From positions 310,001-374,000 of the forward strand of contig NZ_CP043575.1 of assembly GCF_014076495.1 (NCBI RefSeq): a stretch of 64,000 bases of DNA, read 5' to 3'. Source of the stretch: Comamonas koreensis. Its GTDB lineage: Bacteria > Pseudomonadota > Gammaproteobacteria > Burkholderiales > Burkholderiaceae_C. Under the pieces are notes generated by a model. The model was not told the DNA's origin. It was given only the letters and a program-made list of their open reading frames with translations, and did not search any database. Shown piece after piece: positions 8,411-23,960 of this stretch. Numbering within the stretch: the stretch's first letter is position 1; every line of letters starts with the position of its first letter. Both the position numbers and the translations under genes were made by a program.

Positions 8411-9190
8411 TCAATAAGTGCCCGGATACTCGCCCCCATCGATCAGCCAGCTCTGCCCGGTCACATAGCCGGTGTGCTGCGATGCCAGGTAGGCGATCAG
8501 CGCGCCGACTTCTTCGGGCTGGCCAAAGCGGCCTGCGGGGTTGGCGGCCTCGCGGCTTTGACGCACCTGGGCCGGCGAGCGGCCGCTTTGCTGGGCGAGC
8601 TTGTGGATGTGGCGAGCCTGGGCATCGGTGTCGAACGCGCCGGGCAGCACATTGTTGATGGTGACGTTGTGGCGCACCGTCTGGCGAGCCAGGCCCGCGA
8701 CAAAGCCGACCAGTCCCGAACGCGCGCCGTTGGACAGGCCCAGCTCGGCATGCGCCGCCTTGACGCTGCGCGAGACGATATTGATGATGCGCCCATAGCC
8801 GCGCTGCTGCATGCCATCGACCACGCGGCGCATCATGTCGATGGGGCCGACCATCATCATGTCCAGCGCCTCGTGCCAGGTCTCATCGCTCCAGTCACGG
8901 AAGTCACCGGGCGGGTAGCCGTCCGAGTTGTTGACCAGAATGTCCGGCTGCGGGCAGGCAGCCAATGCCGCTTCGCGGCCCGCCTTCTTGGTGATGTCAG
9001 CCACCACATAGCGCACCGTGCGGCCACATTCGGCAGTCAAAGCCTGCGCTGCTGCCTGCAAGCTGCTTTCGGTGCGCGCGGCGATCACCACGTCCACCCC
9101 TTCCAGCGCCAGCTGGCGCGCGGCGGCATAGCCCATGCCCTTGCTGCCGCCCCAGACCAGCGCGGCCTTGCCCGTTAATCCCAGATCCAT
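8411..9190 (-). CDS. SDR-family oxidoreductase with atypical active site
   Basis: 259 residues from the ATG at 9190. The Rossmann fold carries the cofactor motif GGSKGMG near residue 15, NSDGYPP in place of the usual NNAG, and the C-terminal signature GQSWLIDGGEYPGTY. The catalytic YxxxK is missing: where classical SDRs read YxxSK this protein reads LGLSN within ELGLSNGARSG, although the preceding serine (IVSRS) is kept. Related atypical SDRs exist, but activity may differ from simple dehydrogenation. It is the last gene of the minus-strand operon that starts with the diiron oxidase, 11 bases after the reductase gene. Confidence 0.85.
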   Translation of the reverse strand: MDLGLTGKAALVWGGSKGMGYAAARQLALEGVDVVIAARTESSLQAAAQALTAECGRTVRYVVADITKKAGREAALAACPQPDILVNNSDGYPPGDFRDWSDETWHEALDMMMVGPIDMMRRVVDGMQQRGYGRIINIVSRSVKAAHAELGLSNGARSGLVGFVAGLARQTVRHNVTINNVLPGAFDTDAQARHIHKLAQQSGRSPAQVRQSREAANPAGRFGQPEEVGALIAYLASQHTGYVTGQSWLIDGGEYPGTY

Positions 9191-9201
9191 GGTGTGGTTC
9201 C

Positions 9202-10236
9202 TCAGCTTTGTTCGCTCAACTCGGCCACGGCGGCCGCTTCGTTCTGGAAGATGAAGCTGTCGCTGTAGATCTTGTCCAGCGCCGCGCCCGACAGCGCCAT
9301 CAGCGCCTTCGCATCGGCAATCATAGAGGGCGATCCGCACAGATAGATCGAATGCTCGGACAGGTCCTCGAAGTCCTCGGCAATGGCGTCCTGCACATAG
9401 CCACGCCGGCCGGTCCAGCGATCGGACGGGCGCGAGAGCACCGGCACAAAAGTGAACTCATAGAGCTGCCCGGCCCAGGCCGCGATCTCATCGAGCAAAT
9501 ACAGATCGGCCTCACTGCGCATGCCCCAGTAGAAGTGGATCGGCGGGCAGTCGGCATCGCCCAGCAGCGATTCAAGAATCGCCTTGATCGGCGCAAAGCC
9601 GGTGCCGGTGGCGGCAAACACCATCGGCTGGTAGTCCTGCGCGCGGTAGTAAAAGCTGCCGTGGGGCAGTTCCACCTCCAGCACATCGCCCACTGCCATC
9701 GTCGCCAGCAGGCCATCGGTAAAGCGCCCGCCGGCAATCCTGCGGATCTGCAGGCTGACGCGCCGGCCCTGCGGCGGCGTGGCCATCGAGAAGCTGCGGT
9801 ACGCGCCACCGGGCAGGCAGATGTTCAGGTACTGGCCGGGCACATAGCGCAGGCCATGGTCCTCGGGCAGGTCGAGCGCCAGGTGGTAGATATTGGGCGT
9901 GTGCATGCGCAGCTCGGCCACGGTGGCCTGCACGCGGGTGGGCGCGGAGCTGTCCGGCCCGGTCGCGATGCTGATGACCAGATCGGACTGCGCCCGGGCC
10001 TGGCAGGCCAGCGCATAGCCCTGGGTGTGCTCCTCTTCACCCATGGCCAGCGGCAGCTCGCCGTCGGCATAGGCAAACTCGCCCTCTTCGACCTTCATGC
10101 GGCAGCTGCCACAGCCGCCAAAGGTGCAGTCATGGGGCAGCGCCACGCCCTGGCGCGTGGCGGCGTCAAGCACCGATTCATCGGCACCCACGTCAAACGA
10201 TTGCTGCGTCTGCAGCCACTGTACGCGGTAGTTCAT
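9202..10236 (-). CDS. ferredoxin-NAD(P)H reductase with fused 2Fe-2S domain
   Basis: 344 residues. Residues 1-90 are a plant-type 2Fe-2S ferredoxin with ligands C37, C42, C45 and C78. Residues about 100-340 are an FNR-like module with the flavin motif RSFS and the nicotinamide site GTGFAPIKA. The architecture equals reductase components of bacterial oxygenases (phenol hydroxylase, benzoate dioxygenase and CDP-6-deoxyglucoseen reductase types), which pass electrons from NAD(P)H to an iron enzyme. Placement in the operon with a diiron oxidase, opposite two ferredoxins, supports an electron-supply role here. Confidence 0.9.
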   Translation of the reverse strand: MNYRVQWLQTQQSFDVGADESVLDAATRQGVALPHDCTFGGCGSCRMKVEEGEFAYADGELPLAMGEEEHTQGYALACQARAQSDLVISIATGPDSSAPTRVQATVAELRMHTPNIYHLALDLPEDHGLRYVPGQYLNICLPGGAYRSFSMATPPQGRRVSLQIRRIAGGRFTDGLLATMAVGDVLEVELPHGSFYYRAQDYQPMVFAATGTGFAPIKAILESLLGDADCPPIHFYWGMRSEADLYLLDEIAAWAGQLYEFTFVPVLSRPSDRWTGRRGYVQDAIAEDFEDLSEHSIYLCGSPSMIADAKALMALSGAALDKIYSDSFIFQNEAAAVAELSEQS

Positions 10237-10273
10237 CGCAGACCTCGTGCGCTATGCGCTGGTAGGTTGGTGC

Positions 10274-10750
10274 TTATTTCTTGATATCGGCCTGCACCAG
10301 CACATCGGCGGTGGCGCCCAGGTGGTCTTTCAGCGCCTGCAAGGCAGCCACGCCACAGGCGGTGTCCTGCTCGCCATTGCCGCCCGACAGGCCCACGCCG
10401 CCAATCACCTCGCCGTTGACGACGATGGGGTAGCCGCCAACGAAGACCGCAAACTTGCCCTCAAAGCTCCACTGGATGCCAAAGGCCTCGTTGCCCGGCA
10501 ACGCCGGCCCGTTGGGCAAGGTGTTGAACAGGTGCGTGGAGCGCTTGTGTCCCGCTGCCGTGAAGGCCTTGTTCCAGGCGATCTGCGGGCCGGTGACGCG
10601 GGCGCCATCCATGCGCTCGAGCACCAGCGGAAAGCCGCCTTCGTCGGTGATGCAGACCGTCTCGGTCACGCCAATTTCCTTGGCCTTGGCCAGCGCGGCC
10701 AGGGACATCACACGGGCTTCTGCCAGTTCCAGTTTCAGTGCGCTTTTCAT
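10274..10750 (-). CDS. GlcG/HbpS-family protein
   Basis: 158 residues with the family's features: an N-terminal helix, ITDEGGFPLVLERMDGA, and the glycine-rich end GGVGLSGGNGEQD. GlcG/HbpS proteins form oligomers, some bind heme or cobalamin-like cofactors, and many are encoded beside oxidoreductases; their molecular role is mostly unclear. It is third in the minus-strand operon, between the aldehyde dehydrogenase and the reductase. The glc genes at 20.5-23 kb have their own transcription unit, so this copy probably serves the diiron-oxidase pathway. Confidence 0.8.
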   Translation of the reverse strand: MKSALKLELAEARVMSLAALAKAKEIGVTETVCITDEGGFPLVLERMDGARVTGPQIAWNKAFTAAGHKRSTHLFNTLPNGPALPGNEAFGIQWSFEGKFAVFVGGYPIVVNGEVIGGVGLSGGNGEQDTACGVAALQALKDHLGATADVLVQADIKK

Positions 10751-10775
10751 CGTGTTTCCTCTTGCAGTCAGGGGT

Positions 10776-12233
10776 TCAGATACCGCGGTAGACGGTCTTG
10801 ATCTGGGTAAAAAATTCCAGGCCGGCGCGGCCGGACTCGCGGAAGGTGGAGGTGCTGGAGTTCTTCAGCCCGCCAAAGGGCGCATTGACCAGGTTGCCGG
10901 TGGTCGTGCGGTTGATCTTGACGGTGCCCGCCTGGATCTCGTTGGTGAACACATGCATGTAGCGCGGGTTCATCGTGACGATGCTGGCCGACAGGCCGTA
11001 CTGCGAGTCGTTGGCCTGGCGCAGCGCGTCGTCAAAGTCGGCGACTTCGATGATCGCCAGCACCGGGCCGAAGATCTCCTCCTGCGCAATGCGCATGCTG
11101 TTCTTCACATCGGTGAACACTGCGGGCGACAGGTAGTAGCCATGGTCGAACTCGCCGCCGGTGAGCCGCTCGCCGCCGCAGAGCCAGCGGGCCTCGCTCT
11201 TGCCGATGTCGATGTAGCGCTGCACGGTCTGCAGCTGCTTTTCCGTCGCCAAGGGGCCCAGGTCCATGCCCGGCGCCATGCCGTTGCCGATCTTGAGCTG
11301 GGACACGCGCGTGAGCAGCTTGTCGGTAAAGGCCGCCTTGACGCTGGGCACCACCAAGATGCGGCTGGTGCCGGTGCAGGCCTGGCCGGTGAGCGAGAAG
11401 CCGCCCTTGATCGCCAGGTCCACCGCCAGGTTGAGGTCGGCGTCCTCCATCACGATCAGTGGGTTCTTGCCGCCCAGCTCCATCTGCAAGCGGGTGGACA
11501 GGTGCACGGTGCGGTGGATCTGGGTGCCGGCCGTCGTCGAGCCGGTGAACGAGATCGCGCGGATGGCCTGCGAATTGGTGATCACCGGCCCCACCTCGCC
11601 AGCGCGGCCGGTGACGCAGTTGACCACGCCTGGCGGTACACCCGCCTGCTCCAGCGCCTCAACCAGGCGCAGACCCGAGAGCGGTGCATCCGACGAGGGC
11701 TTGAACACCACCGTGTTGCCGGTGATCAGCGCCGGCGCCAGCTTGCGCGCCGGGATGGACGCGGGGAAGTTCCAGGGCGAGATCACCGTCACCACGCCCA
11801 GCGGCTCGCGGTGGCTGAACACATGCATGTTGGCATCGTCCTGCGGGTAGGTCTCGCCGCCCAGGGTCTGGCCTTCGGTGGCATAAAAACGAAAGGTTTG
11901 TGCGCTGCGCAGAAACTCGTCGCGCGCCTGGCTCAGCTGCTTGCCCTCCTCGCGCGTCAGTTCCTGGGCAAACTGCTCCACGTTCTGCTCCAGGTAGCTG
12001 GCCGCATCGTTGAGGATCTTGGCGCGCTTGCCAATGGCCAGCTTGCGCCAGCCGTCAAAGGCCTTTTGCGCGGCCTGCACCGCCGCCTCGGCGTCAGCCG
12101 GGCCCGAGGCCTGAAAACGCCCCACCACATCGCGGGTATCGGCGGGGTTGAGGTTGTCAAAGGTGCTGCCCAGCAGGCAGGGCACCCAGGCGCCGTCGAT
12201 ATAGTTCAGAAACGTTTGCACGGTGTCGGCCAT
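10776..12233 (-). CDS. aldehyde dehydrogenase (NAD(P)-dependent)
   Basis: 485 residues from the ATG at 12233; upstream in-frame sequence overlaps the diiron oxidase gene and has no start support. The catalytic cysteine is C286 (GQACTGTSR), the general base E252 (MELGGKNP), and the cofactor region reads SPWNFPASIP and FTGSTTAG. It oxidises an aldehyde to the acid. Sequence style is near semialdehyde dehydrogenases of the alpha-ketoglutaric semialdehyde group, a weak hint. It is second in the operon behind the diiron oxidase and may act on the aldehyde released by it. Confidence 0.92.
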   Translation of the reverse strand: MADTVQTFLNYIDGAWVPCLLGSTFDNLNPADTRDVVGRFQASGPADAEAAVQAAQKAFDGWRKLAIGKRAKILNDAASYLEQNVEQFAQELTREEGKQLSQARDEFLRSAQTFRFYATEGQTLGGETYPQDDANMHVFSHREPLGVVTVISPWNFPASIPARKLAPALITGNTVVFKPSSDAPLSGLRLVEALEQAGVPPGVVNCVTGRAGEVGPVITNSQAIRAISFTGSTTAGTQIHRTVHLSTRLQMELGGKNPLIVMEDADLNLAVDLAIKGGFSLTGQACTGTSRILVVPSVKAAFTDKLLTRVSQLKIGNGMAPGMDLGPLATEKQLQTVQRYIDIGKSEARWLCGGERLTGGEFDHGYYLSPAVFTDVKNSMRIAQEEIFGPVLAIIEVADFDDALRQANDSQYGLSASIVTMNPRYMHVFTNEIQAGTVKINRTTTGNLVNAPFGGLKNSSTSTFRESGRAGLEFFTQIKTVYRGI

Positions 12234-12325
12234 GGTCGGGAGGTCTTGGAGGGGTGAGGGAGGTCGGTCACAGCGGCGGCCGCCAGGGGCGCGCCGCTGC
12301 GCGGGGCAAAGGGGTGCCGCCAGGC

Positions 12326-13063
12326 TCAGGCGGCCAGCAGCTCTTCCTGCGAGATTTGCAGGTCCTTGGCGACATAGTCGTGGTAGAGCGCCGTGGTGTA
12401 GAGCAGGCGCATCTGGGCACCGATCTCGCAGATGCGCAGGCATTTGGCTTGCAGCTCGGGCGTGTTGGCGTGCTCGAGCACGATCTGGTAGCCGCGCTCG
12501 CCATGGATTTCGTCAGAGACGATGTGCAGGTCAAAGAACTCGACCTCTTCATCGGTAAAGCCGTACTTGTCACGCAAGGTGGGCGTCTGCTTGCGGTAGA
12601 TCGACGGCACCTGCGACTCCAGGCCCACGACCAGGCCGGCCACCGCGACCACCGGGTCTTCGCGCATCGCAATCGCATAGCACCAGGACTGCAGGCCGCG
12701 TGTGGTGGGCGACATATTGTTGGGGTCCACGACGCGCTCGCGCGTCGTGCCGCAGGCTTCGGCAAAGCGGATCAGCAGATCGGTGTGGCGGTCGCCACCA
12801 ATCTCCTCCTCATACATATTGGCCAGCAGAAAGTCCTTGGCCTCTGTCATATGGTCTGGCGTGCGGGCATACAGATAGCCCAGGTAGTCGGCAAACGGGC
12901 CTACATAGTGGTAGTGGTTCTCGGCCCAGCGCGCCAGGTGCTCACGGCTCAGGCGGCCTGTGGCCCAGGCCACGCTGAAAGGGGCCTTGTTGGCGCTCTT
13001 GCCCTTGATGGCATTTTCAAGCGCAGCGCGGAATTCGTCGCGGTTCATCAATGTGCTGGTCAT
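12326..13063 (-). CDS. heme-oxygenase-like diiron oxidase (HDO; TenA/PqqC/CADD fold)
   Basis: 245 residues from the ATG at 13063, which has AGAGGA eight bases before it. The helical protein keeps the six-ligand pattern of heme-oxygenase-like diiron oxidases: E86 and H93 (EEEIGGDRH), E149 (VVGLES), and H180, D184, H187 (HIVSDEIH). Spacing closely matches that in Chlamydia CADD and relatives, whereas TenA thiaminases lack this set. Family members use O2 for C-C cleavage, N-oxygenation or desaturation. It is the first gene of its operon, downstream of a GntR-type palindrome, and is surrounded by ferredoxin, reductase and aldehyde dehydrogenase genes. The substrate is unknown. Confidence 0.8.
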   Translation of the reverse strand: MTSTLMNRDEFRAALENAIKGKSANKAPFSVAWATGRLSREHLARWAENHYHYVGPFADYLGYLYARTPDHMTEAKDFLLANMYEEEIGGDRHTDLLIRFAEACGTTRERVVDPNNMSPTTRGLQSWCYAIAMREDPVVAVAGLVVGLESQVPSIYRKQTPTLRDKYGFTDEEVEFFDLHIVSDEIHGERGYQIVLEHANTPELQAKCLRICEIGAQMRLLYTTALYHDYVAKDLQISQEELLAA

Positions 13064-13127
13064 GGCGGGTTCCTCTGAAATGTTGGAGTCGTCGCCCAAG
13101 TCAAACCGATCCAAGCGACGAAGTTAG

Positions 13128-13141
13128 AATACTGTATACAG
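13128..13141 (-). promoter_or_regulatory. candidate GntR operator A (upstream of diiron oxidase operon)
   Basis: Read on the minus strand as CTGTATACAGTATT, with a perfect ten-base palindrome core at 13132-13141. It lies about 65 bases upstream of the diiron oxidase start and closely resembles four other sites around this cluster. Confidence 0.65.
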
Positions 13142-13327
13142 AAAACATGGTCAATGTTTTCACACCCCATTCCGCCTCAGTGCTTACCCCTATCTCCAGC
13201 AAATCTCAGAGGTAAGCATCGTCTTCTCATAGCCACAATTCCTTGATATTCCATCATTTTCAGGTGCGCCAATGCAGCCCCAATTCCCACTGCATCAGGT
13301 TATCCCTAATACATCCACAACATCCGT

Positions 13328-13342
13328 TTGTATACAGTATAC
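13328..13342 (+). promoter_or_regulatory. candidate GntR operator B (upstream of ferredoxin operon)
   Basis: TTGTATACAGTATAC, a near-perfect inverted repeat ending 23 bases before the first ferredoxin start. The 302-base intergenic region 13064-13365 thus has one copy for each divergent operon. Confidence 0.68.
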
Positions 13343-13365
13343 GTAATTGCAATGCGGAGAAGCCC

Positions 13366-13731
13366 ATGCCCCAGATCACCTTTCACAAGAACGGCCAGAC
13401 CTTCCAAGGCGAGGTCAAGACCGGCGCCAACCTGGTGGTGCGCGCGGGGATCAAGCAGTTCCCCTATCCCCACCTGGCCTACCAGTGCGGCATGGGCAAG
13501 TGCGCCACCTGCGCCTGCAAGGTGCTGGCGGGGGCTGAGCACCTGCCGGCGCCGAACTGGAAAGAAAAGAAGCAGCTGGGCGCGCACCTGGACCAGGGCT
13601 TTCGCCTGGTCTGCCAGCTCTGGCCCGAGCAGGACCTGGAGCTGGAACAAGTGCCGCTGCCGGCCACCAACGCCGGCGCCGCCAGCGCCACCCAGCCCGC
13701 AGGCACAGCGCCCGCCACCCCTGCAGCCTGA
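13366..13731 (+). CDS. 2Fe-2S ferredoxin
   Basis: 121 residues from the ATG at 13366, with GCGGAGAAG just upstream. Ligands are C41, C46, C49 (CGMGKCATC) and C83 (RLVCQLW); an extra C51 follows. After residue 95 there is an Ala/Pro-rich tail. Plant-type ferredoxins carry one electron from a reductase to an oxygenase. It is the first gene of the plus-strand operon controlled by operator B and is a likely electron donor for the diiron oxidase. The aspartate/glutamate content is lower than in classical ferredoxins, so its redox partner may be specialised. Confidence 0.9.
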   Translation: MPQITFHKNGQTFQGEVKTGANLVVRAGIKQFPYPHLAYQCGMGKCATCACKVLAGAEHLPAPNWKEKKQLGAHLDQGFRLVCQLWPEQDLELEQVPLPATNAGAASATQPAGTAPATPAA

Positions 13732-13740
13732 GGAGCGCCC

Positions 13741-14070
13741 ATGTTTGTGATCTTGACCAGCAAGCCCGGCCAGTACCGCACGCAGGCCAATGCCGACATC
13801 AGCCTGCTCGAAGCCTGGGACTACCACTTTTGCGGCCGCCTGCTGGCCCACTTTGCCGTGGGCGAGTTGCTGCGCGAGACCAAGGTCCAGGTGATCGAGG
13901 ATGGCCCCGGCGGCACCACCAACCAGGTGCCATCCAAGTTTCTGGAGCGCTTTGACTCGCTGGAGCAAGCGCGTAGCGAGCTGCAGCACCTGTGCCAGTT
14001 CGGCGCGCTCGATGCCACCCTGACCCCGGCACCCCTCACCGCCCCGCCAGCCACCCCATCCGCTGCCTGA
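13741..14070 (+). CDS. 109-residue protein of unknown function between two ferredoxins
   Basis: Starts MFVILTSKPGQYRTQANADI, with a compact alpha/beta-like first 85 residues and an Ala/Pro/Thr-rich tail similar in composition to that of the preceding ferredoxin. Features include EAWDYHFCGRLLAHFAVGEL and a central EDGPGGTTNQVPSKF. I do not recognise a family. It has tight spacing to both ferredoxin genes (9 bases either side), so it is co-translated with them. It may be an oxygenase accessory or coupling protein, which is inference from position only. Confidence 0.7.
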   Translation: MFVILTSKPGQYRTQANADISLLEAWDYHFCGRLLAHFAVGELLRETKVQVIEDGPGGTTNQVPSKFLERFDSLEQARSELQHLCQFGALDATLTPAPLTAPPATPSAA

Positions 14071-14079
14071 TTGCCCCGT

Positions 14080-14370
14080 ATGCCCACCATCACCTTTGTC
14101 AGCAACGACAACAAGACCGTCGAAGCCCCGGAAAACAGCAACCTGCTGCGCGTGTCGCTGCGCGAGAAAGGCGGCATCCCCTTCAAATGCGGCGGGGGCC
14201 TGTGCGGCACCTGTAAATGCCGCATCGAGGAAGGACTGGCCCACACCGATGCCATCAAGGCCAAGGAGCGCAAGCATTTCAGCGACGAAGAGTTTGCCGC
14301 CGGCCACCGCCTGGCCTGCCAGACCTTTGTCAACGGCGACATCAAGGTCAGCTGGGTGCGACCCGCATGA
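14080..14370 (+). CDS. second 2Fe-2S ferredoxin
   Basis: 96 residues. Ligands C37, C42, C45 (KCGGGLCGTCKC) and C80 (RLACQTF). It differs clearly from the first ferredoxin and lacks the disordered tail, so the two are not a recent duplication. The ATG at 14080 is preferred to a TTG nine bases upstream. The stop overlaps the next gene as ATGA. Two distinct ferredoxins plus a reductase in one regulon suggests either two electron-transfer steps or two terminal enzymes. Confidence 0.9.
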   Translation: MPTITFVSNDNKTVEAPENSNLLRVSLREKGGIPFKCGGGLCGTCKCRIEEGLAHTDAIKAKERKHFSDEEFAAGHRLACQTFVNGDIKVSWVRPA

Positions 14371-15113
14371 GTGCCTGGACGGCGATGGCCGAGCAGCTCT
14401 CCTGGGGCCGCTACCTGGCCATGGGCCTGATGGTGCTCGCGGGCGCTGCGATGCAGGGCGTGGGCGGCCTGGGCTATGCGATGTTCTGCGCGCCGCTGGC
14501 GGCGATCTTTTTCCCCGAGCTGGTGCCCGGCCCGCTGCTGGCCGTGGGCGCGCCGCTGGCCTTGCTGGCCTATCTGCGCGAGCGCGAGGCGCTCAACCAC
14601 CAGGTCGCTGCCGCCACCTTGGTGGGCCGCGTCATCGGCACCTTTGCGGCCACCGGCCTGCTGGTGCTGTTCAGCACCCATGCGCTGTCCATTCTGTTTG
14701 CGGTGCTGATCCTGGCAGCCGTCTGCCTCAGCACCATGGGCTGGCGCGTGCAGCCCAGCACCACCAACCTGTCGATTGCCGGTGTGGCCAGCGGCATCAT
14801 GGGCACGATCACCGCCGCCGGCGGCCCGCCGTTTGCGATTGCGATGCAGCACCTGGCACCGGCGACGATGCGCTCGACGCTGGGCGTGGTCTTTTTTGCC
14901 GGCACCATCGTCTCGCTCAGCGCGCTGGCCTGGGTCGGCCGCATGGGCAGTGACCAGTGGCTGCTCAGCCTCGTGCTGCTGCCCTGGATGCTGGGCGGTT
15001 TTCTCGCCTCCAACCGCCTGGCCCGCCATATCTCCAAGGCCACCATCCGCCGCTGGCTGCTGGGCACCGCCGCCGTCAGCGCCTGCATCATCCTGCTGCG
15101 CGTCTGGCTCTGA
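14367..15113 (+). CDS. TauE/SafE-family membrane transporter
   Basis: 248 residues, about eight transmembrane helices, with the two half-repeats typical of the family (GAAMQGVGGLGYAMFCAPLA early and GIMGTITAAGGPPFAIAMQH late). TauE/SafE proteins move sulfite, sulfonates or organic acids out of, sometimes into, the cell. It is translationally coupled to the second ferredoxin (ATGA overlap). It may export a product of the pathway; the substrate cannot be read from sequence. Confidence 0.85.
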   Translation: MSAWTAMAEQLSWGRYLAMGLMVLAGAAMQGVGGLGYAMFCAPLAAIFFPELVPGPLLAVGAPLALLAYLREREALNHQVAAATLVGRVIGTFAATGLLVLFSTHALSILFAVLILAAVCLSTMGWRVQPSTTNLSIAGVASGIMGTITAAGGPPFAIAMQHLAPATMRSTLGVVFFAGTIVSLSALAWVGRMGSDQWLLSLVLLPWMLGGFLASNRLARHISKATIRRWLLGTAAVSACIILLRVWL

Positions 15114-15150
15114 GCGCATTCCCCCACCAACCCATCACCCCACACACACC

Positions 15151-16077
15151 ATGCTGCACATCACCGATGCCATGGTGGACACCCTGGTGTCCACCGACCA
15201 AGCCCTGCAGGCCATGCACCGCGCCTTTGCCGCCTTTGGGGCGGGCGAGGCAGCGATGCAAGCGCGCGAGCGCACCGATGCCGGGGGCGTCAAGCTGTCC
15301 ACGCTGGGGGCCGTCATCCCCGCGCAAGGGGTGACCGGCGCCAAGGTCTACACCACCATTGCCAGCCAGTTCAACTTTGTCATCCTGCTGTTTTCCACCG
15401 AGACTGGCGCGCCGCTGGCCACCTTGGATGCCAATGCGATCACGCGCCTGCGCACCGCCGCCACCACGGTGCTGGTGGCCCAGCACCTGGCGCCCGCCAA
15501 CGCGCGCCATCTGTTTTTGTGCGGCGCTGGCGTGCAGGGCCTCGCCCATGCGCAGCAGATGGTGCAGCAATTCGGGCTGCAGCGCATCGATGTGTTTGAC
15601 CCCTATGCGCCCAGCGGCCTTGAAGCACGCCTGGCGCAGCTCACCGGTTTGCCCGAGGCGCAGATCCGCCGCGTGGCGCACACCCAGGGCGTGGGCGAGG
15701 CCGACATCATCGTCACCGCCTCACGCGCCAAAGAGCCGCTGTTCAACGGCGCGCATGTCGCCCCCCATGCGCTGGTCGCCGCCATTGGCTCCAGCCTGCC
15801 CCACACCCGCGAGCTCGACGATGCCTTGCTGGCGCGCGCGCAGCTGATTGCGGTGGAATGGAAAAAGCAGGCAACGAGCGAAGCAGGCGACCTGGTGCTG
15901 GCCGACCCGGGTCTGTCGCTCGCAGACAAACTGGTGGAGCTGGGTGATATCGTCAGCGGCCGCCATGCCGTCAGCGCGCAGCCGGGCCTCCGGCTGTACA
16001 AGGCCGTGGGCGTGGGTTTGGAAGATATTGCGCTGGCTGGCGTGGCCTACCAGAACTACCTGGCCAGCCAATCGTAA
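15151..16077 (+). CDS. ornithine cyclodeaminase/mu-crystallin family protein
   Basis: 308 residues. N-terminal substrate domain with GGVKLSTLG and GAKVYTT, then a Rossmann domain with the dinucleotide motif CGAGVQGLAHAQ. Family members include ornithine cyclodeaminase, alanine dehydrogenase and ketimine reductases, all acting on the C-N bond of amino or imino acids. This is the last gene of the plus-strand ferredoxin operon, 37 bases after the TauE gene, with no clear ribosome site. Its presence hints that the pathway handles an amino acid or cyclic imine. Confidence 0.85.
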   Translation: MLHITDAMVDTLVSTDQALQAMHRAFAAFGAGEAAMQARERTDAGGVKLSTLGAVIPAQGVTGAKVYTTIASQFNFVILLFSTETGAPLATLDANAITRLRTAATTVLVAQHLAPANARHLFLCGAGVQGLAHAQQMVQQFGLQRIDVFDPYAPSGLEARLAQLTGLPEAQIRRVAHTQGVGEADIIVTASRAKEPLFNGAHVAPHALVAAIGSSLPHTRELDDALLARAQLIAVEWKKQATSEAGDLVLADPGLSLADKLVELGDIVSGRHAVSAQPGLRLYKAVGVGLEDIALAGVAYQNYLASQS

Positions 16078-16086
16078 ACGGGAAAC

Positions 16087-16740
16087 TCAGGGCTCGATGC
16101 CGGCCGCGTTGTAGATATGGCGCGCGGCCAGCAGGCCGGCCAGCTCGGGATCGCCCTTGATCACGGCGCGCAGGATGGCGGCATGCTCTTCCCAGTTCTG
16201 CGGCGCACGCGCCTGGCTGCGCGGCGCAAACAGCACCTCGGTGCGGTCGCGCAAGGACAGCATCACCTCTTGCAGCACCGAGTTGGCGGCAATCTTGCCC
16301 AGCGCCAGGTGGAACTTCTGGTTCAGCACAGCCAGCACATCGCCATCGCCGGAATGGGCGTTCTTGGTGCCTTCGGCCAGCAAGGCCTCCAGCGCGGCAA
16401 TCTGCTCGGGGTCATGGCGCTTGGCAGCCAGGCGTGCGTTGAGCGCCTCCAGGGTGGCGCGCACTTCGACCAGCTCGCGCAGCAGATCGCCATGGAACTT
16501 GGCAACCGAGGCACCGCGCCGGGGCTCGATGATCACCAGGCCGCTGGCCGCCAGCTGGCGCAAGGCCTCACGCACGGGCATGCGCGAGACGGAAAACTCC
16601 TCGGACAGACGCTCTTCCACCAGCCGCTCGCCCGAGGCCAGCTCGCCCGACATGATCTTCTCGCGCAAGGCCTCCACCAGCTGCTGGGTCAGCGGCGAGT
16701 GGTTGAGTCCAGGTTTTTTGTCTCCGTTGGCAATGGGCAT
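16087..16740 (-). CDS. GntR/FadR-family transcriptional regulator (FCD domain)
   Basis: 217 residues. Winged helix at about 15-75 (SGERLVEERLSEEFSVSRMP, VREALRQLAASGL), then an FCD effector domain with the metal-type ligand set N140, H144, H186 and H208. Such regulators usually repress catabolic genes until a carboxylate-type ligand binds. It stands inside the cluster, and palindromes of the GntR size class (TTGTATAC-N3-ATACAA) precede four neighbouring units, making it the probable regulator of the whole 8.4-20.5 kb region. Confidence 0.9.
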   Translation of the reverse strand: MPIANGDKKPGLNHSPLTQQLVEALREKIMSGELASGERLVEERLSEEFSVSRMPVREALRQLAASGLVIIEPRRGASVAKFHGDLLRELVEVRATLEALNARLAAKRHDPEQIAALEALLAEGTKNAHSGDGDVLAVLNQKFHLALGKIAANSVLQEVMLSLRDRTEVLFAPRSQARAPQNWEEHAAILRAVIKGDPELAGLLAARHIYNAAGIEP

Positions 16741-16860
16741 GAAAGTCGGTCCGTTGGGTACGTTGCAAGCCCCAGGGCCAGCGCATTGGCTGCAATGCGC
16801 CGCTCAGGGTCGCGCCCAGTTTACATGCCCAGCCAGGGTTTGCAGCGTCTTTGCCTTGCC

Positions 16861-16877
16861 TTGTATACAGAAATCTG
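16861..16877 (+). promoter_or_regulatory. partial GntR site C
   Basis: TTGTATACAGAAATCTG keeps the left half-site exactly but has a degenerate right half. It lies 120 bases upstream of the gntR start and just past the small gene at 16881, a sensible place for autoregulation. Weaker than sites A, B, E and F. Confidence 0.4.
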
Positions 16878-16880
16878 CGC

Positions 16881-17111
16881 TCAGCGCCGGGCGCGGCGGA
16901 TCTCGGCCAATGAGCGCGTATCTTGCAGTGCCTGGGCCCACAGACGCCCCGGCTCCAGCTCGGCCAGGCGCTTGGCCTGCCAGCGCACAAAGGCGTTTTC
17001 CACCGCCGACAACCAGCCCAGTGATGCCGGCAGCAAGGCTTGGCGGGGCTCACGCAGTACCAGCAGATCGTCTTGCTGGGCAACCACAGAGGGGGAAACA
17101 ATGTTCTTCAT
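16881..17111 (-). CDS. 76-residue protein of unknown function in the GntR regulon
   Basis: Starts MKNIVSPSVVAQQDDLLVLR at an ATG with CCAGGAG eight bases upstream. The protein is soluble and mostly helical, with a Trp-containing middle (GWLSAVENAFVRWQAKRLAE) and a basic end (RRARR). No signal peptide or membrane span. A GntR-type palindrome sits 35-51 bases upstream of its start. No family recognised; a small regulator or accessory protein is possible. Confidence 0.65.
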   Translation of the reverse strand: MKNIVSPSVVAQQDDLLVLREPRQALLPASLGWLSAVENAFVRWQAKRLAELEPGRLWAQALQDTRSLAEIRRARR

Positions 17112-17145
17112 GGAATAGCTCCTGGATAACCTAGTAATAACCCTA

Positions 17146-17162
17146 GTGTATCCAGTGTACAA
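17146..17162 (-). promoter_or_regulatory. candidate GntR operator F (upstream of the 76-residue gene)
   Basis: On the minus strand TTGTACACTGGATACAC, matching the TTGTATAC-N3-ATACAA consensus at 15 of 17 places if spacer bases are free. Lies 35 bases before the start at 17111. Confidence 0.55.
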
Positions 17163-17312
17163 ATCCATGTCCTTGATCTGGGTCCATAACCCTGCACTAT
17201 CCAAGCCTTTGATCCGTCTCGCAAATCCCCTAAAAAACAAGACTCTGACACCGCCATAGCGCCAGGCATGCAAAAGCCTTCATCGCACAAATGTGCCCTG
17301 ACATTTCCATTT

Positions 17313-17329
17313 TTGTATACGAAAACAGC
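17313..17329 (+). promoter_or_regulatory. partial GntR site D
   Basis: TTGTATACGAAAACAGC carries an exact left half-site with a poor right half, in the 347-base gene-free region 17112-17458 that otherwise holds sites F and E and AT-rich promoter-like sequence. Confidence 0.4.
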
Positions 17330-17407
17330 TTTTTTTCACATTTAACCCGGGTTCATCGCATGTTGCAATGCAATATTTCTGGTATTCCCTGATGATTTTT
17401 CGCATCA

Positions 17408-17424
17408 TTGTATTTAGTATACAA
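17408..17424 (+). promoter_or_regulatory. candidate GntR operator E (upstream of permease operon)
   Basis: TTGTATTTAGTATACAA, a 17-base inverted repeat that is the best fit to the consensus. It ends 34 bases before the permease start. Confidence 0.68.
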
Positions 17425-17458
17425 ATTGGCTGTTTAAACATACCAAGGAGTAGCCGCG

Positions 17459-18997
17459 ATGGATCCGTCAGTCTCTATAGGCCCTGCGCACTGGGCCTAC
17501 CTCGCCGGGGTGCTGGTCATCATTGTGACCATGGCCTTCCGTGCCAATGTGGTGGTGCCATCGATACTGGCCACCGTCGTCGTCGCCTTCGCCTGGAGCG
17601 GCAGCTTCATCACCGGGATTGGAAGCATATTTGGTGCCAGCATGGTGGCGGCCAAGGAGCTGTTCAACATCTTTCTGATCATTGCGCTGATGACAGCCTT
17701 GCTCAACGCGCTCAAGGACCTGGGCTCGGACATCCGCATGGTCAAGCCCTTCCGTGCGGTGATGAAAAATGGACACATCGCCTATTTCATCCTGGCGCTG
17801 GTCACCTACCTGATCTCGCTGTTCTTCTGGCCCACGCCGGCCGTACCCCTGGTCGCTGCCGTGCTGCTGCCGGCAGCGATTGCGGCGGGCCTGCCGCCCA
17901 TTGCAGGGGCAATGGCGATTGCGATTGCCGGCCAAGGCATGGCGCTGTCATCCGACTATGTGATTGGCGTGGCGCCGGGCATCAGCGCCAAGGCCGCTGG
18001 CGGCATCAGTGCGGTGGCGGTGGCCGACAAGGCGCTGCTGCTGTCCTGGGTGGTCGGCATGATTGCGCTGTTCCTGTCGTACTTCAAGGTGCGCAAGCTC
18101 ATCGTGCCCAGCGACAACGCGCTGCTGGAGCGCTGGGAGCTCAACCCCGCCGGCATCGACGCGCAGATGGAAGGGGCAGGGCCCTACGACAAGGCCGAGA
18201 TCGCCAAGGGCACCGCCCACGACGGCGACCTGGGCACCAACTCGGAGCTGGAAGCCGAGCTGCGCAAGACCCAGCCGCTGGCCTCGGCCTCCAAGCTGTT
18301 TGCCGTTGTCACGCCGCTGGCATTCTTGCTGGTGATTTTGGTGATGGTCGCGCCCAAGTTCACCAGCGCGGTGCCCGAGCTCAAGGGTGGCGATGCGGCC
18401 ATGCTGATCGGCGGCGTCGCTGCGCTGCTGATGATCTGGGCCACCACCGCCGCCCGGGGCTTTCGCAAGATGCTCGACGGCGCAGCTGACCACATCACCG
18501 ATGGCTTTGTGTTTGCGTTCAAGGCCATGGGCTCGGTGCTGCCGATTGCCGGCTTCTTCTTCATCGGCTCGGGCGAGACGGCTGGTGCCATCCTGGGCAT
18601 TGCACCGGGCACCACGCCGCCGAGCCTGCTGTTCGAGCTGGTGCAAGCCGGCCAGCACCTGATCCCGGACAGCCAGCTGCTGGTCTCGCTGGGGGTCCTC
18701 ATCATGGGCATGATCACCGGCATCGACGGCTCGGGCTTCTCCGGCCTGCCGCTGACCGGCACCATCGCCGGAGCACTGGGCCCGGCCTCGGGCATGGATG
18801 TGTCGGCCCTGGCCGCGCTGGGCCAGATGGGCGCGGTCTGGACGGGTGGCGGCACCTTGATCGCCTGGTCCTCGCTGATTGCGGTGGCAGGCTTTGCCCG
18901 CGTGAATGTGCTGGAGCTGGCCCGGGCGCTGCTGATACCGGTGGTGCTGGGCTTGCTGGCCGCAGTCTTCACCGCCGTGGCGCTCTGGGGCGGCTGA
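17459..18997 (+). CDS. multi-span permease, ion-transporter-superfamily-like
   Basis: 512 residues with roughly 12 hydrophobic helices and one long soluble loop (about residues 205-275, containing MEGAGPYDKAEIAKG). Start has AAGGAG eight bases before it. Helical pattern and motifs such as FFWPTPAVPLVAAVLLPAAI and the late GMITGIDGSGFSGLPLTGT resemble anion/dicarboxylate permeases of the IT superfamily, but I cannot assign a named family. It is led by operator E and followed one base later by the gamma-glutamyltransferase gene. It is the likely importer of the substrate of this regulon. Confidence 0.75.
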   Translation: MDPSVSIGPAHWAYLAGVLVIIVTMAFRANVVVPSILATVVVAFAWSGSFITGIGSIFGASMVAAKELFNIFLIIALMTALLNALKDLGSDIRMVKPFRAVMKNGHIAYFILALVTYLISLFFWPTPAVPLVAAVLLPAAIAAGLPPIAGAMAIAIAGQGMALSSDYVIGVAPGISAKAAGGISAVAVADKALLLSWVVGMIALFLSYFKVRKLIVPSDNALLERWELNPAGIDAQMEGAGPYDKAEIAKGTAHDGDLGTNSELEAELRKTQPLASASKLFAVVTPLAFLLVILVMVAPKFTSAVPELKGGDAAMLIGGVAALLMIWATTAARGFRKMLDGAADHITDGFVFAFKAMGSVLPIAGFFFIGSGETAGAILGIAPGTTPPSLLFELVQAGQHLIPDSQLLVSLGVLIMGMITGIDGSGFSGLPLTGTIAGALGPASGMDVSALAALGQMGAVWTGGGTLIAWSSLIAVAGFARVNVLELARALLIPVVLGLLAAVFTAVALWGG

Positions 18998-18998
18998 G

Positions 18999-20471
18999 AT
19001 GGCACAGCTGCACCACCAAGGCGCGCCCGGCGTGCTGGGCCGGGGCGCGATGCTGGCCACCGGCCACCCGCTGGCCGCAGCGGCCGCGCAGGCCCAGCTG
19101 CAGCAAGGCGGCTCAGCGGTCGATGCCGCGATTGCCGCCGATGCGGTGCTGGGCGTTGTCGAGCCCATGGCCACCGGCGTGGGCGGCGACCTGCTGGCGA
19201 TGCTGGTGCCGTCCGGCCAGGCGCCGCTGGCTTATAACGGCACCGGGCGTGCGCCCCAAGCTTTGACGGCGGCCCTGGTCGAGGCCCTGCCCCAGTGCCG
19301 CATCCCCGAGCGCCATCCGCTGTCCGTCACCACGCCCGGCGTGGTGCAAGGCTGGTGGGATCTGCACCAGCGTTTTGGCAAACGCCCCTGGGCGCAGCTG
19401 TTCGATGCCGCCGTGCAGGCCGCCAGCCAGGGCTTTGCGGTGGCCCCCGTTGCTGCGCGCGAATGGGCACTGTTCCAGCCGGTGATTGCCCGCGATGCGG
19501 CCAGCGCCGCCCTCTACCGCGCCGATGCCCCGCCGCGCGCTGGCGAGCAATTTGACAACCCGGCACTGGCCCGCTTGCTGCAAGCAGTCGCTGCGCAGGG
19601 GCCACAGGCCTTTTATGCGGGTGCCATCCCCGCCGCCTGCGCCGCTGCGGTGCAGGCAGCGGGCGGCGTGTTGGCCGCTGCGGATTTCAGCGCCCACCAG
19701 GGCAACTTCTGCACCCCAGTGAGCACCTCGTTTCGTGGCGCCACCATCCATGAATGCCCACCCAATACCCATGGTGTGGCGGTGCTGCATGCGCTGGCTG
19801 CCATGCAGGACCAGGCCATCGACATGGCCAGCGCTGCCACCCAGGTCGCGCTGGTGCAGGCGATGGAGGCAGCGATGGCCCATGCCCAGCAGACCGTGGC
19901 CGACCCGGCCGGTAACACCGTCTGCACCACCGTGGTCGATGGCGATGGCCTGGCCATCAGCCTGATGAGCAGCGTGTTCAAGCGCTTTGGCTCGGGCATT
20001 GGTGTGGCCGAAGGCGGCTTTGTGCTGCAGAACCGGGGCCATGGCTTTTCGCAACCCGGCCATATCAATGGGCCGGCGCCCGGCAAGCGCCCCTATCACA
20101 CGGTGGTGCCGGGAGCTGCCACACGCAATGGCCAATTCCTCGGCGTGTTTGGCGTGGTGGGCGGCGCCATGCAACCCCAAGGCCAGGTGCAGCTGCTGTG
20201 CCGCCTGCTGGCGGGCGGCGAGGCACCGCAGCCCGCGTTGAACCAGCCGCGCTGGCGCCTGGAAGGCGGCCGGGTGTTGGCGGTGGAGGCGGGCATGCCG
20301 CCCGCGATCACCGCCGCGCTGCGGGCCCAGGGCTACCGCGAGCCCAGCGGCGAAGGCGAGCTGGGGGGGCGCAGCGACTTTGGCGGCGCGCAGTGCATCT
20401 GGCGCCTGGCCGATGGACAGCTGTGCGGCGCCTCCGACCAACGCAAGGACGGCCTGGCGCTGGCCGTCTAA
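18999..20471 (+). CDS. gamma-glutamyltransferase family protein (Ntn hydrolase)
   Basis: 490 residues; members mature by autocleavage into two subunits. The probable nucleophile is the first Thr in NTVCTTVVDGDG at about residue 306, aligned to the TTH(F/Y)SVVD motif of classical enzymes. N-terminal features DAAIAADAVLGVVEP and GVGGDLLAM are typical. No signal peptide is seen, unlike periplasmic Ggt, so it probably works in the cytoplasm. Separated from the permease by one base, it may hydrolyse a gamma-glutamyl or other amide bond in the imported compound. Confidence 0.85.
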   Translation: MAQLHHQGAPGVLGRGAMLATGHPLAAAAAQAQLQQGGSAVDAAIAADAVLGVVEPMATGVGGDLLAMLVPSGQAPLAYNGTGRAPQALTAALVEALPQCRIPERHPLSVTTPGVVQGWWDLHQRFGKRPWAQLFDAAVQAASQGFAVAPVAAREWALFQPVIARDAASAALYRADAPPRAGEQFDNPALARLLQAVAAQGPQAFYAGAIPAACAAAVQAAGGVLAAADFSAHQGNFCTPVSTSFRGATIHECPPNTHGVAVLHALAAMQDQAIDMASAATQVALVQAMEAAMAHAQQTVADPAGNTVCTTVVDGDGLAISLMSSVFKRFGSGIGVAEGGFVLQNRGHGFSQPGHINGPAPGKRPYHTVVPGAATRNGQFLGVFGVVGGAMQPQGQVQLLCRLLAGGEAPQPALNQPRWRLEGGRVLAVEAGMPPAITAALRAQGYREPSGEGELGGRSDFGGAQCIWRLADGQLCGASDQRKDGLALAV

Positions 20472-20491: not shown

Positions 20492-21757
20492 TCAGCGCTG
20501 GGGCTTTTGCGGCGCCAGCGCCTCGTCCACCACCTCGATCCAGTGGCGCACCGGCACATCGGTGCCCGATTGCAGGTGCGAGATGCAGCCGATGTTGGCC
20601 GACAGAATCGCGGCGGGCGGCGCATCGCTGCAGGCCTGGTTCAAGGTGCCGATCTTGCGGTCGCGCAGCTGGTGCGCAATCTCGGGCTGCAGCAGCGAAT
20701 AGGTGCCGGCCGAGCCGCAGCACAGGTGCGATTCCACCCGCGAGACGCGGATGTCAAAGCCCAGGCGACGCAGGCTCGTCTCCACCCCGCCGCGCAGCTT
20801 TTGGCCATGCTGCAAGGTGCAGGGCGGGTGGTAGGCCAGGGGGGCTTCAGGCAAGTTCAGCTGGCCCTGCAGGCGCTGCTCCAGCTCGGGCAGCATGTCG
20901 GGCAGCAGCTCGCAAAGGTCACGCGCCAATGCGCTAATGGCAGCGGCGCGCGCGGCATAGGCCGGGTCATGGCGCAGCAGGTGGCCGTAGTCCTTGACCA
21001 TCACGCCACAGCCAGAAGCCGTGGTCACAATGGCCTCGACCTGCTGGCTCTCCACATGGGGCCACCAGGCATCGATATTGGCGCGTGCCTGCGCCAGCGC
21101 GCCCTGCGGGTCGCTCAGATGTTGCTGCACCGCGCCGCAGCAGGCGGCGGCTGGGGTAATCAAGGTCTGGATGCCCACGGCATCGAGCACCCGGGCAGCG
21201 GCGGCATTGATATTGGGCAGCATCACCGGCTGCACGCAACCGGCCAGCATCAGCACCTTGCGCGCATGCGTGCGCGTGGGCCACTTGCCAGCACGCGGCA
21301 CGCGCGCCAGCTTGGCCTTGAGCGCAGCAGGCAGCACCGGGCGGGCCAGCCGCCCCAGCGCCAGCGCCGGTCCAAAGGCCTTGGAGACCATGCCCTTGCG
21401 CAGCGCCCAGCGCTGCAGGCGCTCGGCCGTCGGACGCTCGACCTTCTGGTCGACGATATGGCGGCCGATATCGAGCAGCTTGCCGTATTGCACGCCGCTG
21501 GGGCAGGTCGATTCGCAATTGCGGCAGGTCAGGCAGCGGTCCAGGTGGGTCTGGGTCTTGCGTGTGGGCTCCTGGCCCTCGAGCACCTGCTTGATCAGGT
21601 AGATACGGCCGCGCGGGCCATCGAGCTCATCGCCCAGCAGCTGGTAGGTGGGGCAGGTCGCGGTGCAAAAGCCGCAATGCACGCACTTGCGCAAAATGGC
21701 CTCGGCCTCCTGGCCTTCGGGGGTGTCTTTGAATTCGGGGGCTAATTGGGTTTGCAT
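20492..21757 (-). CDS. glcF: glycolate oxidase iron-sulfur subunit GlcF
   Basis: 421 residues. Two 4Fe-4S motifs near the N-terminus (CVHCGFCTATCP and CLTCRNCESTCP) and two CCG-type cysteine-rich domains in the C-terminal half (ACCGAVQQH, LCCGSAGTYS). GlcF carries electrons from the flavin subunits of glycolate oxidase to the quinone pool. It follows glcE by 33 bases on the minus strand and is convergent with the gamma-glutamyltransferase gene. The GlcD catalytic subunit is not next to it. Confidence 0.93.
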   Translation of the reverse strand: MQTQLAPEFKDTPEGQEAEAILRKCVHCGFCTATCPTYQLLGDELDGPRGRIYLIKQVLEGQEPTRKTQTHLDRCLTCRNCESTCPSGVQYGKLLDIGRHIVDQKVERPTAERLQRWALRKGMVSKAFGPALALGRLARPVLPAALKAKLARVPRAGKWPTRTHARKVLMLAGCVQPVMLPNINAAAARVLDAVGIQTLITPAAACCGAVQQHLSDPQGALAQARANIDAWWPHVESQQVEAIVTTASGCGVMVKDYGHLLRHDPAYAARAAAISALARDLCELLPDMLPELEQRLQGQLNLPEAPLAYHPPCTLQHGQKLRGGVETSLRRLGFDIRVSRVESHLCCGSAGTYSLLQPEIAHQLRDRKIGTLNQACSDAPPAAILSANIGCISHLQSGTDVPVRHWIEVVDEALAPQKPQR

Positions 21758-21790
21758 GGTGCAGGGGTGCCTCGATTAGCGGAGATGCGC

Positions 21791-23012: not shown

Positions 23013-23960
23013 TCAGAACCCATGCCCGATTTCCCGCCAAGGCTGGGTCGGCAGGCCGGCCACACCGGCGCGCATCGCAAACACGCAGCCCGACAGCGGC
23101 AGCTGGGCCAGCTCGTCGCGGCTGCGGCCGTGGCGGGCGGAGGTGACGTACAAGGTGCGGCCATCGCTGCCACCAAAGCAGGGCATCGTGGGGCAGAGCG
23201 CCGGCGTGTAGTGGCTGGCGAGGATGCGGCCTTGCGGGGAGATCTGCAGCACGCGCCCGCCCTCGTACATCGCGCACCAGTAGTTGCCTTCAACGTCCAC
23301 AGCGGCACCATCGGGCCGGCCGCCATAGCCGGGCTCGCCCGGGGTCCAGCCCTCGGGCTTGGCATCAAAGCGCATGAAGACTTCGCCCTCGCCTTGCGGA
23401 TAGCCGCTCACGTCGCAGGCGAATTTCTTGATCGTGTGGCTGGGGGTATCGGCCCAGTACATGGTGCGCCGGTCGGGCGACCAGGCCAGGCCATTGGCGT
23501 TGGAGACGCCATCTTGCACCTTGCGCACCGTCGTGGTGCCCGTCAGCCCATCGATGCAGTAGAGCGCGGCCACCGGTTGGCGCGGGCCGCTGGCGGGCTC
23601 GTGGATGGTGCCGACCCAGAAGCGGCCCTGCGCATCGCAGCGGCCATCGTTGCCGCGCTCGGTGGCCGGGTCGATCGGCAGGCGGGCGATGTCGTGCAGG
23701 GTACCGCCCCAGTGGGTGGCGCGGCAGATGCGGTCGCGCAGCACGACGATCCAGCCGTCCAGCGCGCCGCCGCTGCGGGCCGGCGCAATGCAGCCGGGCT
23801 CGGCGGGCATGTCCCAGCGGTCCATATAGCCCGATCCGGGCATCGTGCGCCACAGCTGTTTGCCAGCGACATCGACGCCATAGAGAACACCACCGCTGGC
23901 TTGCCAGAAAGGGGACTCCCCCAACGCAAAGGGCTGGCTGACCACGGTATGCCAGATCAT
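23013..23960 (-). CDS. SMP-30/gluconolactonase-family lactonase
   Basis: 315 residues, predicted six-bladed propeller. Metal ligands can be placed: glutamate in LGESPFW, asparagine in NANGLAWSPD and aspartate in GGSDGRTLYVTSA, with the family landmark YWADTPSHTI. Enzymes of this group hydrolyse sugar or aldonic acid lactones using Ca or Zn. It is in the same orientation upstream of glcEF and may share the transcript. The lactone substrate is unknown. Confidence 0.88.
   Translation of the reverse strand: MIWHTVVSQPFALGESPFWQASGGVLYGVDVAGKQLWRTMPGSGYMDRWDMPAEPGCIAPARSGGALDGWIVVLRDRICRATHWGGTLHDIARLPIDPATERGNDGRCDAQGRFWVGTIHEPASGPRQPVAALYCIDGLTGTTTVRKVQDGVSNANGLAWSPDRRTMYWADTPSHTIKKFACDVSGYPQGEGEVFMRFDAKPEGWTPGEPGYGGRPDGAAVDVEGNYWCAMYEGGRVLQISPQGRILASHYTPALCPTMPCFGGSDGRTLYVTSARHGRSRDELAQLPLSGCVFAMRAGVAGLPTQPWREIGHGF

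Follow-up and report, generated by a model that had tools for sequence, protein, structure and literature searches.

What does a heme-oxygenase-like diiron oxidase (HDO) do when its gene lies among genes for a reductase, two ferredoxins, an aldehyde dehydrogenase (ALDH), an importer and a regulator? The question is raised by positions 8411-20471 of a 64-kb stretch of Comamonas chromosome (the whole of which is called the window), where 14 genes form about four transcription units. The HDO and ALDH are 98% and 99% identical, respectively, to Comamonas koreensis proteins (locus L003). On balance, the gene families and their shared operator-like sites incline us towards a substrate-induced catabolic pathway in which ferredoxins feed the HDO and a small imported anion is degraded through an aldehyde intermediate.

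Gene families were assigned with the Pfam and NCBIfam profile libraries. A minus-strand unit encodes the HDO, the ALDH, a GlcG protein, the reductase and a short-chain dehydrogenase (SDR). A plus-strand unit encodes ferredoxin 1 (Fd1), a 109-aa protein (P109), ferredoxin 2 (Fd2), a TauE protein and an ornithine-cyclodeaminase-like enzyme (OCD). The third unit, on the minus strand, consists of a 76-aa gene followed by gntR, and the fourth, on the plus strand, of the importer gene followed by a gene of the gamma-glutamyltransferase (GGT) family.

The diiron oxidase

The HDO (245 aa; 12326-13063, minus strand) was identified by Pfam Haem_oxygenas_2 and by alignment to CADD-type structures. Its closest solved sequences are two CADD-type 4-aminobenzoate (pABA) synthases, 9pj4 (71.9 bits) and 1rcw (64.4 bits), followed by PqqC. 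Predicted ligands E86, H93, E149, H180, D184 and H187 align with 1rcw and 9pj4, and all six are kept in 15/15 aligned sequences; the positions are those of the CADD ligands. By these predicted ligands, three histidines and three carboxylates, the oxidase is a heme-oxygenase-like diiron oxidase. An excerpt of a 2026 review describes the HDO ligand set as 3H/3C (PMC13108848).

Two functions known from the solved relatives were rejected. The active-site tyrosine of the self-sacrificing CADD-type pABA synthases is replaced by serine in the window and in 12/12 orthologues of at least 78% identity; the tyrosine of the PFY/TFY motif in 1rcw and 9pj4 is, we assume, the sacrificial residue. The HDO scores 96.8 bits against the pABA synthase model TIGR04305 (cut-off 200) and 48 bits against the PqqC model TIGR02111 (cut-off 240). 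A further possibility is that the HDO is an N-oxygenase, converting its amine substrate to a hydroxylamine, an oxime or a nitro compound that other enzymes would degrade. N-oxygenation is listed among known HDO reactions in the excerpted review (PMC13108848), but the nearest solved sequences here are CADD/pABA synthase and PqqC, with no named N-oxygenase among the 15 matches listed, and we regard this activity as quite unlikely.

A shared operator-like palindrome

The hexamer GTATAC occurs six times in the window, against 0.96 expected under a first-order Markov model. All six copies (13134, 13330, 13337, 16863, 17315 and 17417) fall in three gaps of the cluster that total 789 bp. When up to one mismatch was allowed, TGTATACA gave 9 matches in the window, six of them inside the cluster; 100 shuffles averaged 3.11, and two of these also reached 9. 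The operator-like sites, for which no strand is assigned, precede the units. A palindrome lies before the HDO gene (13127-13141, with TGTATACA at 13133-13140), two overlapping sites, TTGTATACAGTATAC, before Fd1 (13328-13342), one site upstream of gntR (16861-16870) and two before the importer (17313-17322 and 17416-17424).

The gap 5' of the 76-aa gene is the same as that of the importer. Both exact sites are closer to the importer, and near the 76-aa gene there is only one imperfect site, TGTATCCA at 17147. Since the site at 16863 lies between the 76-aa gene and gntR, gntR may be a separate unit, giving four or five units. An earlier sequence-only reading of the window had counted fourteen genes in four units: its gene count and approximate unit number stand, with gntR as a possible fifth.

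The footprint was then assessed in 36 loci, comprising the window, five other Comamonas loci, 22 from Cupriavidus and eight from other genera; L102 and L105, which duplicate L057 and L055, were excluded, as was L025 for its short length. A site was defined as TGTATAC or GTATACA, and a gap between divergent genes was counted for both. Sites were present in the upstream gaps of the HDO (36/39), importer (33/35), TauE (14/15), GntR (26/34) and 76-aa (5/6, the gap held in common with the importer) genes. They were less frequent upstream of Fd1, which is often internal to a unit (10/33), OCD (9/25) and ALDH (3/23), and were found in 0/40 gaps upstream of the reductase, GlcG, Fd2, P109 and GGT-like genes. 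Altogether, 97/209 gaps upstream of regulon genes carried a site, compared with 13/276 other gaps of the same loci, and unit starts carried sites even where gene order differed between loci. Many of these loci are close relatives and hence not independent. The footprint is strong, though not independent, evidence that the predicted units form one regulon, as had been proposed from the shared palindrome: the exact copies in the window are confined to cluster gaps, and related clusters carry the site at the corresponding promoters.

The candidate regulator (217 aa; 16087-16740, minus strand) has GntR and FCD domains, with 73.8 and 90.9 bits, respectively, both above the Pfam gathering score.

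Elsewhere in the same genome (L083, C1:411477), a perfect TTGTATACAA palindrome lies about 20-25 bases 5' of a gene for an SDF-family dicarboxylate carrier, whose neighbours are a TenA-family gene and a RidA-family gene.

Conserved core and distribution

HDO sequences of at least 78% identity were found in 10 of 399 genomes from the order, while 16 further genomes matched at 26-32% only. A P109 profile matched 9 of the 399, and 9 of the 10 genomes with the HDO; the conserved linkage expected for the oxidase, both ferredoxins and P109 was thus recovered. Among 398 genomes from the phylum, the HDO was present at this identity in four and at 47% in a fifth (E limit 1e-40). The P109 profile matched four, three of them already in the 399 and one new (G668, outside the order). 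Only G668 itself matched the HDO among 199 genomes of its order (E 1e-60). The HDO at this identity was absent from 2/2 own-genus and 9/9 own-family genomes listed in the order sample, despite five other Comamonas carrying the cluster. By contrast with this patchy occurrence, nearly all genomes of a single genus, taken as Cupriavidus, contain the HDO: it was present in 55/60, two with shortened matches.

Clusters were mapped from loci fetched for holding the HDO or P109, and so show linkage rather than how frequent the cluster is. All 22 mapped Cupriavidus clusters contain the HDO, Fd1, P109, Fd2, GlcG, ALDH, reductase, importer and OCD. In the 30 clusters outside Comamonas (these 22 plus eight from other genera), HDO, Fd1, Fd2 and GlcG are present in 30, P109 in 29, and GntR, ALDH, reductase and importer in 28 each. 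OCD follows with 25, TauE with 17 (13/22 Cupriavidus and 4/8 other-genus clusters) and a close GGT-like gene with 4. GlcG is found in 35/35 related clusters. The SDR is 86-98% identical in 5/5 Comamonas loci and was found in 0/30 of the other clusters mapped; it does not belong to the conserved set.

Outside Comamonas, identity to the window proteins is 79-94% for the HDO, 73-89% for GlcG, 66-77% for ALDH, 51-64% for the reductase (28/30 clusters) and 39-63% for P109. As the HDO is the most conserved part, its conservation suggests one fixed reaction. In a distant genome (L115), an HDO of 45% identity is followed by an adjoining GlcG (53%) and a GntR regulator (55%), with a Rieske-domain protein, a hydrolase and SDRs nearby. 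The HDO-GlcG pair, still adjacent there beside a related regulator, may be the oldest unit.

Three Cupriavidus loci (L094, L095 and L107) have two opposite-facing HDO copies about 3-4 kb apart, together with a GGT-like gene.

Proposed electron supply

The reductase (344 aa; 9202-10236, minus strand) is of the NADH:ferredoxin type, BenC/MmoC-like, with Pfam Fer2, FAD and NAD domains. It is most similar to BenC, with 215.9 bits against the model NF040810, below the cut-off of 430. Both ferredoxins are of the [2Fe-2S] type and match Pfam Fer2: Fd1 (121 aa; 13366-13731, plus strand), with a CX4CX2C...C motif in its translation, and Fd2 (96 aa; 14080-14370, plus strand). P109 (13741-14070, plus strand) has no assigned family and a beta-rich predicted fold; it has 82 homologues, and its model (pLDDT 84.2) gave no convincing fold match in structure comparison. 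One ferredoxin may have a signalling role instead of transferring electrons, as an excerpt of PMC4814904 led us to consider.

At L018:8614-9942, the Fd2 orthologue is fused to an alpha/beta hydrolase in a single 442-aa protein.

Aldehyde- and imine-type enzymes

The ALDH (485 aa; 10776-12233, minus strand; assigned by Pfam) has the alpha-ketoglutaric semialdehyde dehydrogenase GucD as its nearest model (NF042993; 553 bits, cut-off 770), the top of 25 models listed. The atypical SDR (259 aa; 8411-9190, minus strand; Pfam adh_short_C2), last gene of the HDO unit, reaches the cut-off of none of the NCBIfam models listed (25 of 211). The GlcG/HbpS-like DUF336 protein (158 aa; 10274-10750, minus strand; Pfam HbpS-like) scores only 57.2 bits against EfgA, and its K61, S122 and D129 align with EfgA K57, S114 and D121 (6bws; an inferred constant chain-numbering offset of 20). 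EfgA is a DUF336 protein that binds formaldehyde, and an excerpt of the published work implicates these three residues in the binding (PMC8153426).

The OCD (308 aa; 15151-16077, plus strand; Pfam OCD_Mu_crystall) is an ornithine cyclodeaminase/mu-crystallin-like enzyme. It matched 13 NCBIfam models, none at cut-off (best NF004793; 126.6 bits, cut-off 322), and scored 303 bits to 3hdj, a 'probable ornithine cyclodeaminase'. Given this OCD-like enzyme, the substrate may contain nitrogen, as the sequence-only reading had proposed.

All cluster proteins are below the cut-off of each NCBIfam model among those listed, and none can therefore be filed under a named equivalog. P109, the 76-aa protein and the importer gave no Pfam or NCBIfam match at E 0.001 and no Pfam match at E 10. 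The lack of a family model for these three also bears on whether literature searching missed a known pathway, with its substrate assigned, to which the gene set belongs. Word searches of open-access literature, which do not amount to a full literature search and leave out most subscription journals, could miss such a pathway, but no paper that they listed describes this set, and we consider it rather improbable that one exists. The sequence-only reading had known of no characterised pathway with these genes, and its claim agrees with these searches. Nor were the genes seen in unlinked, differently regulated units in the relatives mapped.

Importer, exporter and hydrolases

The importer (512 aa; 17459-18997, plus strand) had 2923 relatives at E <=1e-10 among 7993 candidates scored. 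Carriers of the ion-transporter superfamily, for dicarboxylates, citrate, sulfate, arsenite and sialic acid, were the matches of its AlphaFold model; judged by the model, the importer shares this fold. Two clusters without the importer, L018 and L078, have TctC-type receptors. The predicted fold and these receptors point to a small organic anion as the probable import substrate.

The TauE/SafE-type exporter (248 aa; 14367-15113, plus strand; Pfam TauE) raises the possibility of organosulfonate or other sulfur catabolism, with sulfite freed by the HDO or a partner and exported by TauE. Apart from TauE/SafE family membership, this would be consistent with an isethionate TRAP channel among the importer fold matches, and with a sulfite-dehydrogenase-like molybdoprotein (Oxidored_molyb and Mo-co_dimer domains) and a small CXXCH protein near the HDO at L020:6633-8190. 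However, TauE is missing from 9/22 Cupriavidus and 4/8 other-genus clusters, and the molybdoprotein was observed in that locus only: in L022, from the same genus, the three large genes 5' of the HDO encode a chemoreceptor, an MFS carrier and a SpecificRecomb protein. The importer fold matches equally include carboxylate, sulfate and arsenite carriers. Sulfur catabolism therefore appears very unlikely.

The last gene of the cluster encodes a GGT-family Ntn hydrolase (490 aa; 18999-20471, plus strand; Pfam G_glu_transpept) that is acylase-like: its best structure match is 2nlz, a 'cephalosporin acylase'. Its Thr307 aligns with the catalytic nucleophile position of 2e0w (T391), which is alanine in that entry. 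Assignment as a true gamma-glutamyltransferase is not supported. Relative to 2e0w, the arginine of FREMAP is threonine, the second aspartate of MDDFS is glycine, and the two serines of RPLSS are histidine and threonine, positions that we take to be the E. coli gamma-glutamyl pocket residues R114, D433, S462 and S463. The score against TIGR00066 is 254 bits (cut-off 357.85).

The gene is present in 5/5 Comamonas, 4/22 Cupriavidus (64-65% identity, beside Fd2 or one gene away) and 0/8 other-genus clusters. With pocket residues replaced and this narrow occurrence, the gamma-glutamyl substrate suggested earlier is not supported. Other hydrolases occur in related clusters: a more distant GGT-family gene (30%) adjoins the reductase in L024, an alpha/beta hydrolase adjoins Fd2 in L056, and a carboxylesterase lies near the fused Fd2-hydrolase of L018. 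Many clusters have no recognised hydrolase. The varying kind of hydrolase suggests removal of an acyl or ester cap.

Proposed pathway

The families, the intact ligands, the operator in common and the conserved linkage are read from sequence; from them we infer a catabolic direction, the electron route, the aldehyde intermediate, the sequence of steps and the part played by the hydrolases. The GntR/FCD regulator would keep the units shut at TTGTATACAA-like sites in the absence of its ligand. The importer would admit a small organic anion, which would be a carboxylate and possibly an N-acyl, imino or amino acid. The BenC-like reductase would take electrons from NADH and pass them, by way of one or both ferredoxins, to the HDO, which would activate O2 and hydroxylate or cleave the substrate. 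The product would fall apart to an aldehyde that the DUF336/GlcG protein may bind or guard, and that the ALDH would oxidise to an acid for central metabolism. The other half of the substrate may yield an imine or amino acid, which the OCD-like enzyme would remove. A hydrolase whose kind differs between clusters would strip an acyl or ester cap: the GGT-family acylase in Comamonas and some Cupriavidus, and an alpha/beta hydrolase or esterase in two other clusters. TauE may export an anionic by-product.

Several observations weigh against this scheme. OCD is absent from 5/8 other-genus clusters (present in 22/22 Cupriavidus and 3/8 other clusters). The L018 and L078 stretches are without reductase, ALDH and importer, and L078 is also without P109 and GntR; the missing functions could be provided by genes at other sites, or the scheme itself could be mistaken. 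L078, the most reduced cluster, has no operator site, and the window's own genome contains 8 more TTGTATACA places, lying outside the cluster and showing no clear connection with it. The three EfgA residues are largely conserved across DUF336 proteins, according to an excerpt of PMC8153426, and being so common they are no proof of aldehyde binding by GlcG.

Characterised HDOs also point the other way. About a dozen are functionally validated, mostly on fatty or amino acids, and they are tied mainly to natural-product or cofactor biosynthesis, as stated in excerpts of the review (PMC13108848). The cluster could accordingly be a biosynthetic island in which the HDO modifies an amino or fatty acid on the way to a secreted metabolite, with export by TauE or, in Caballeronia, an MFS protein. 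Exporter-type genes are indeed present (TauE, and MFS in L056), and AMP-binding ligases lie near the HDO in the distant L115 and L116. On the other hand, no peptide-forming, ligase, polyketide or acyl-carrier gene is among the recurring genes, the flanks having been identified in part. An anion importer, ALDH and GntR/FCD regulator fit uptake and breakdown better, and the HDO is nearly ubiquitous in Cupriavidus. We judge a biosynthetic island unlikely and favour a catabolic role.

Small proteins and neighbouring genes

Comamonas and L017 (presumed Bordetella) encode relatives of the 76-aa protein (16881-17111, minus strand). In many other loci the regulon contains or adjoins a second small protein (55-77 aa) that carries a GQQLL-H-ARRDAVRHATPL-P-like stretch; it was seen in 23/35 loci searched (21/33 after removal of two duplicate records). 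Copies were located at L055:16847-17023, L019:1681-1848, L021:961-1137, L020:8377-8601, L022:8590-8823 and L023:11748-11894. Two copies are without a Pfam match, and an operator site lies about 30-35 bases 5' in several loci. Comamonas and L017 have an unrelated 76-80-aa protein in its place.

Directly after the cluster, window positions 20492-22942 encode glcF and glcE, both above NCBIfam cut-offs; this adjacency is seen in Comamonas loci only. The following gene (23013-23960) is SMP-30/gluconolactonase-like and not glcD. Positions 24598-26850 encode a 750-aa protein with class-V aminotransferase, metallo-beta-lactamase and rhodanese domains.

Comparison with known systems

HDOs, BenC-like chains and GntR regulons have each been described before; as far as we found, their conserved and apparently catabolic combination is new. 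The chances seem even that this is a first catabolic HDO system with a reductase, two private ferredoxins and a DUF336 aldehyde-handling partner, representing a widespread and unrecognised route of small-anion degradation. New ways of finding functions for the remaining HDOs are called key in an excerpt of the review (PMC13108848). Here, an HDO clade occurs in a well-studied genus with a transporter, regulator and redox partners alongside, so that its substrate could be sought by simple growth and induction screens. Such work would test whether HDOs can serve in catabolism as multicomponent oxygenases supplied by ferredoxins, and would assign functions to an importer family that Pfam lacks, to the 109-aa family and to the DUF336 protein.

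The CADD and NePabS 4-aminobenzoate synthases, the closest solved relatives, have the same six-ligand pattern. They differ in the PFY/TFY tyrosine, which is serine in this HDO, and the gene of the present HDO shares an apparently catabolic operon with redox partners. Ring-hydroxylating dioxygenase systems (BenC, AntC; ThnA3/ThnA4) follow the same NADH-reductase-ferredoxin-oxygenase logic in catabolic operons. Their terminal oxygenase is a Rieske protein, whereas here it would be the HDO, and the reductase falls short of the BenC cut-off. EfgA, the cluster GlcG, the PduO C-domain and NahX share the DUF336 family, and the three EfgA residues that are implicated in binding formaldehyde are kept here; unlike EfgA and other DUF336 proteins, the cluster GlcG is linked to an HDO. 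The acylase-like GGT branch (2nlz) shares sequence family and catalytic threonine with the cluster hydrolase, whose pocket is not gamma-glutamyl. HpxW presumably belongs to that branch as well.

The nearest parallel for a dedicated electron supply is MboA-MboB of mangotoxin synthesis. The word ferredoxin does not occur in the HDO review, and MboB is named there, in a figure legend, as the redox partner of MboA (PMC13108848, excerpt). According to the MboA paper (PMC13185094, excerpt), no dedicated pair of HDO and redox partner may have been characterised before MboAB, and MboB works with NAD(P)H, a flavin and an Fe2S2 cluster. There, likewise, an HDO is encoded with its own flavin and Fe2S2 NAD(P)H reductase. 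MboA is biosynthetic and makes an alkyne on a peptide, and is likened to this HDO by description, not by sequence. By the excerpted account, the cluster reductase is broadly of the same kind as MboB, and the two additional ferredoxins extend the arrangement. Beyond what MboA-MboB has, the cluster presented here adds those ferredoxins, P109, GlcG, an ALDH, an importer and a regulator.

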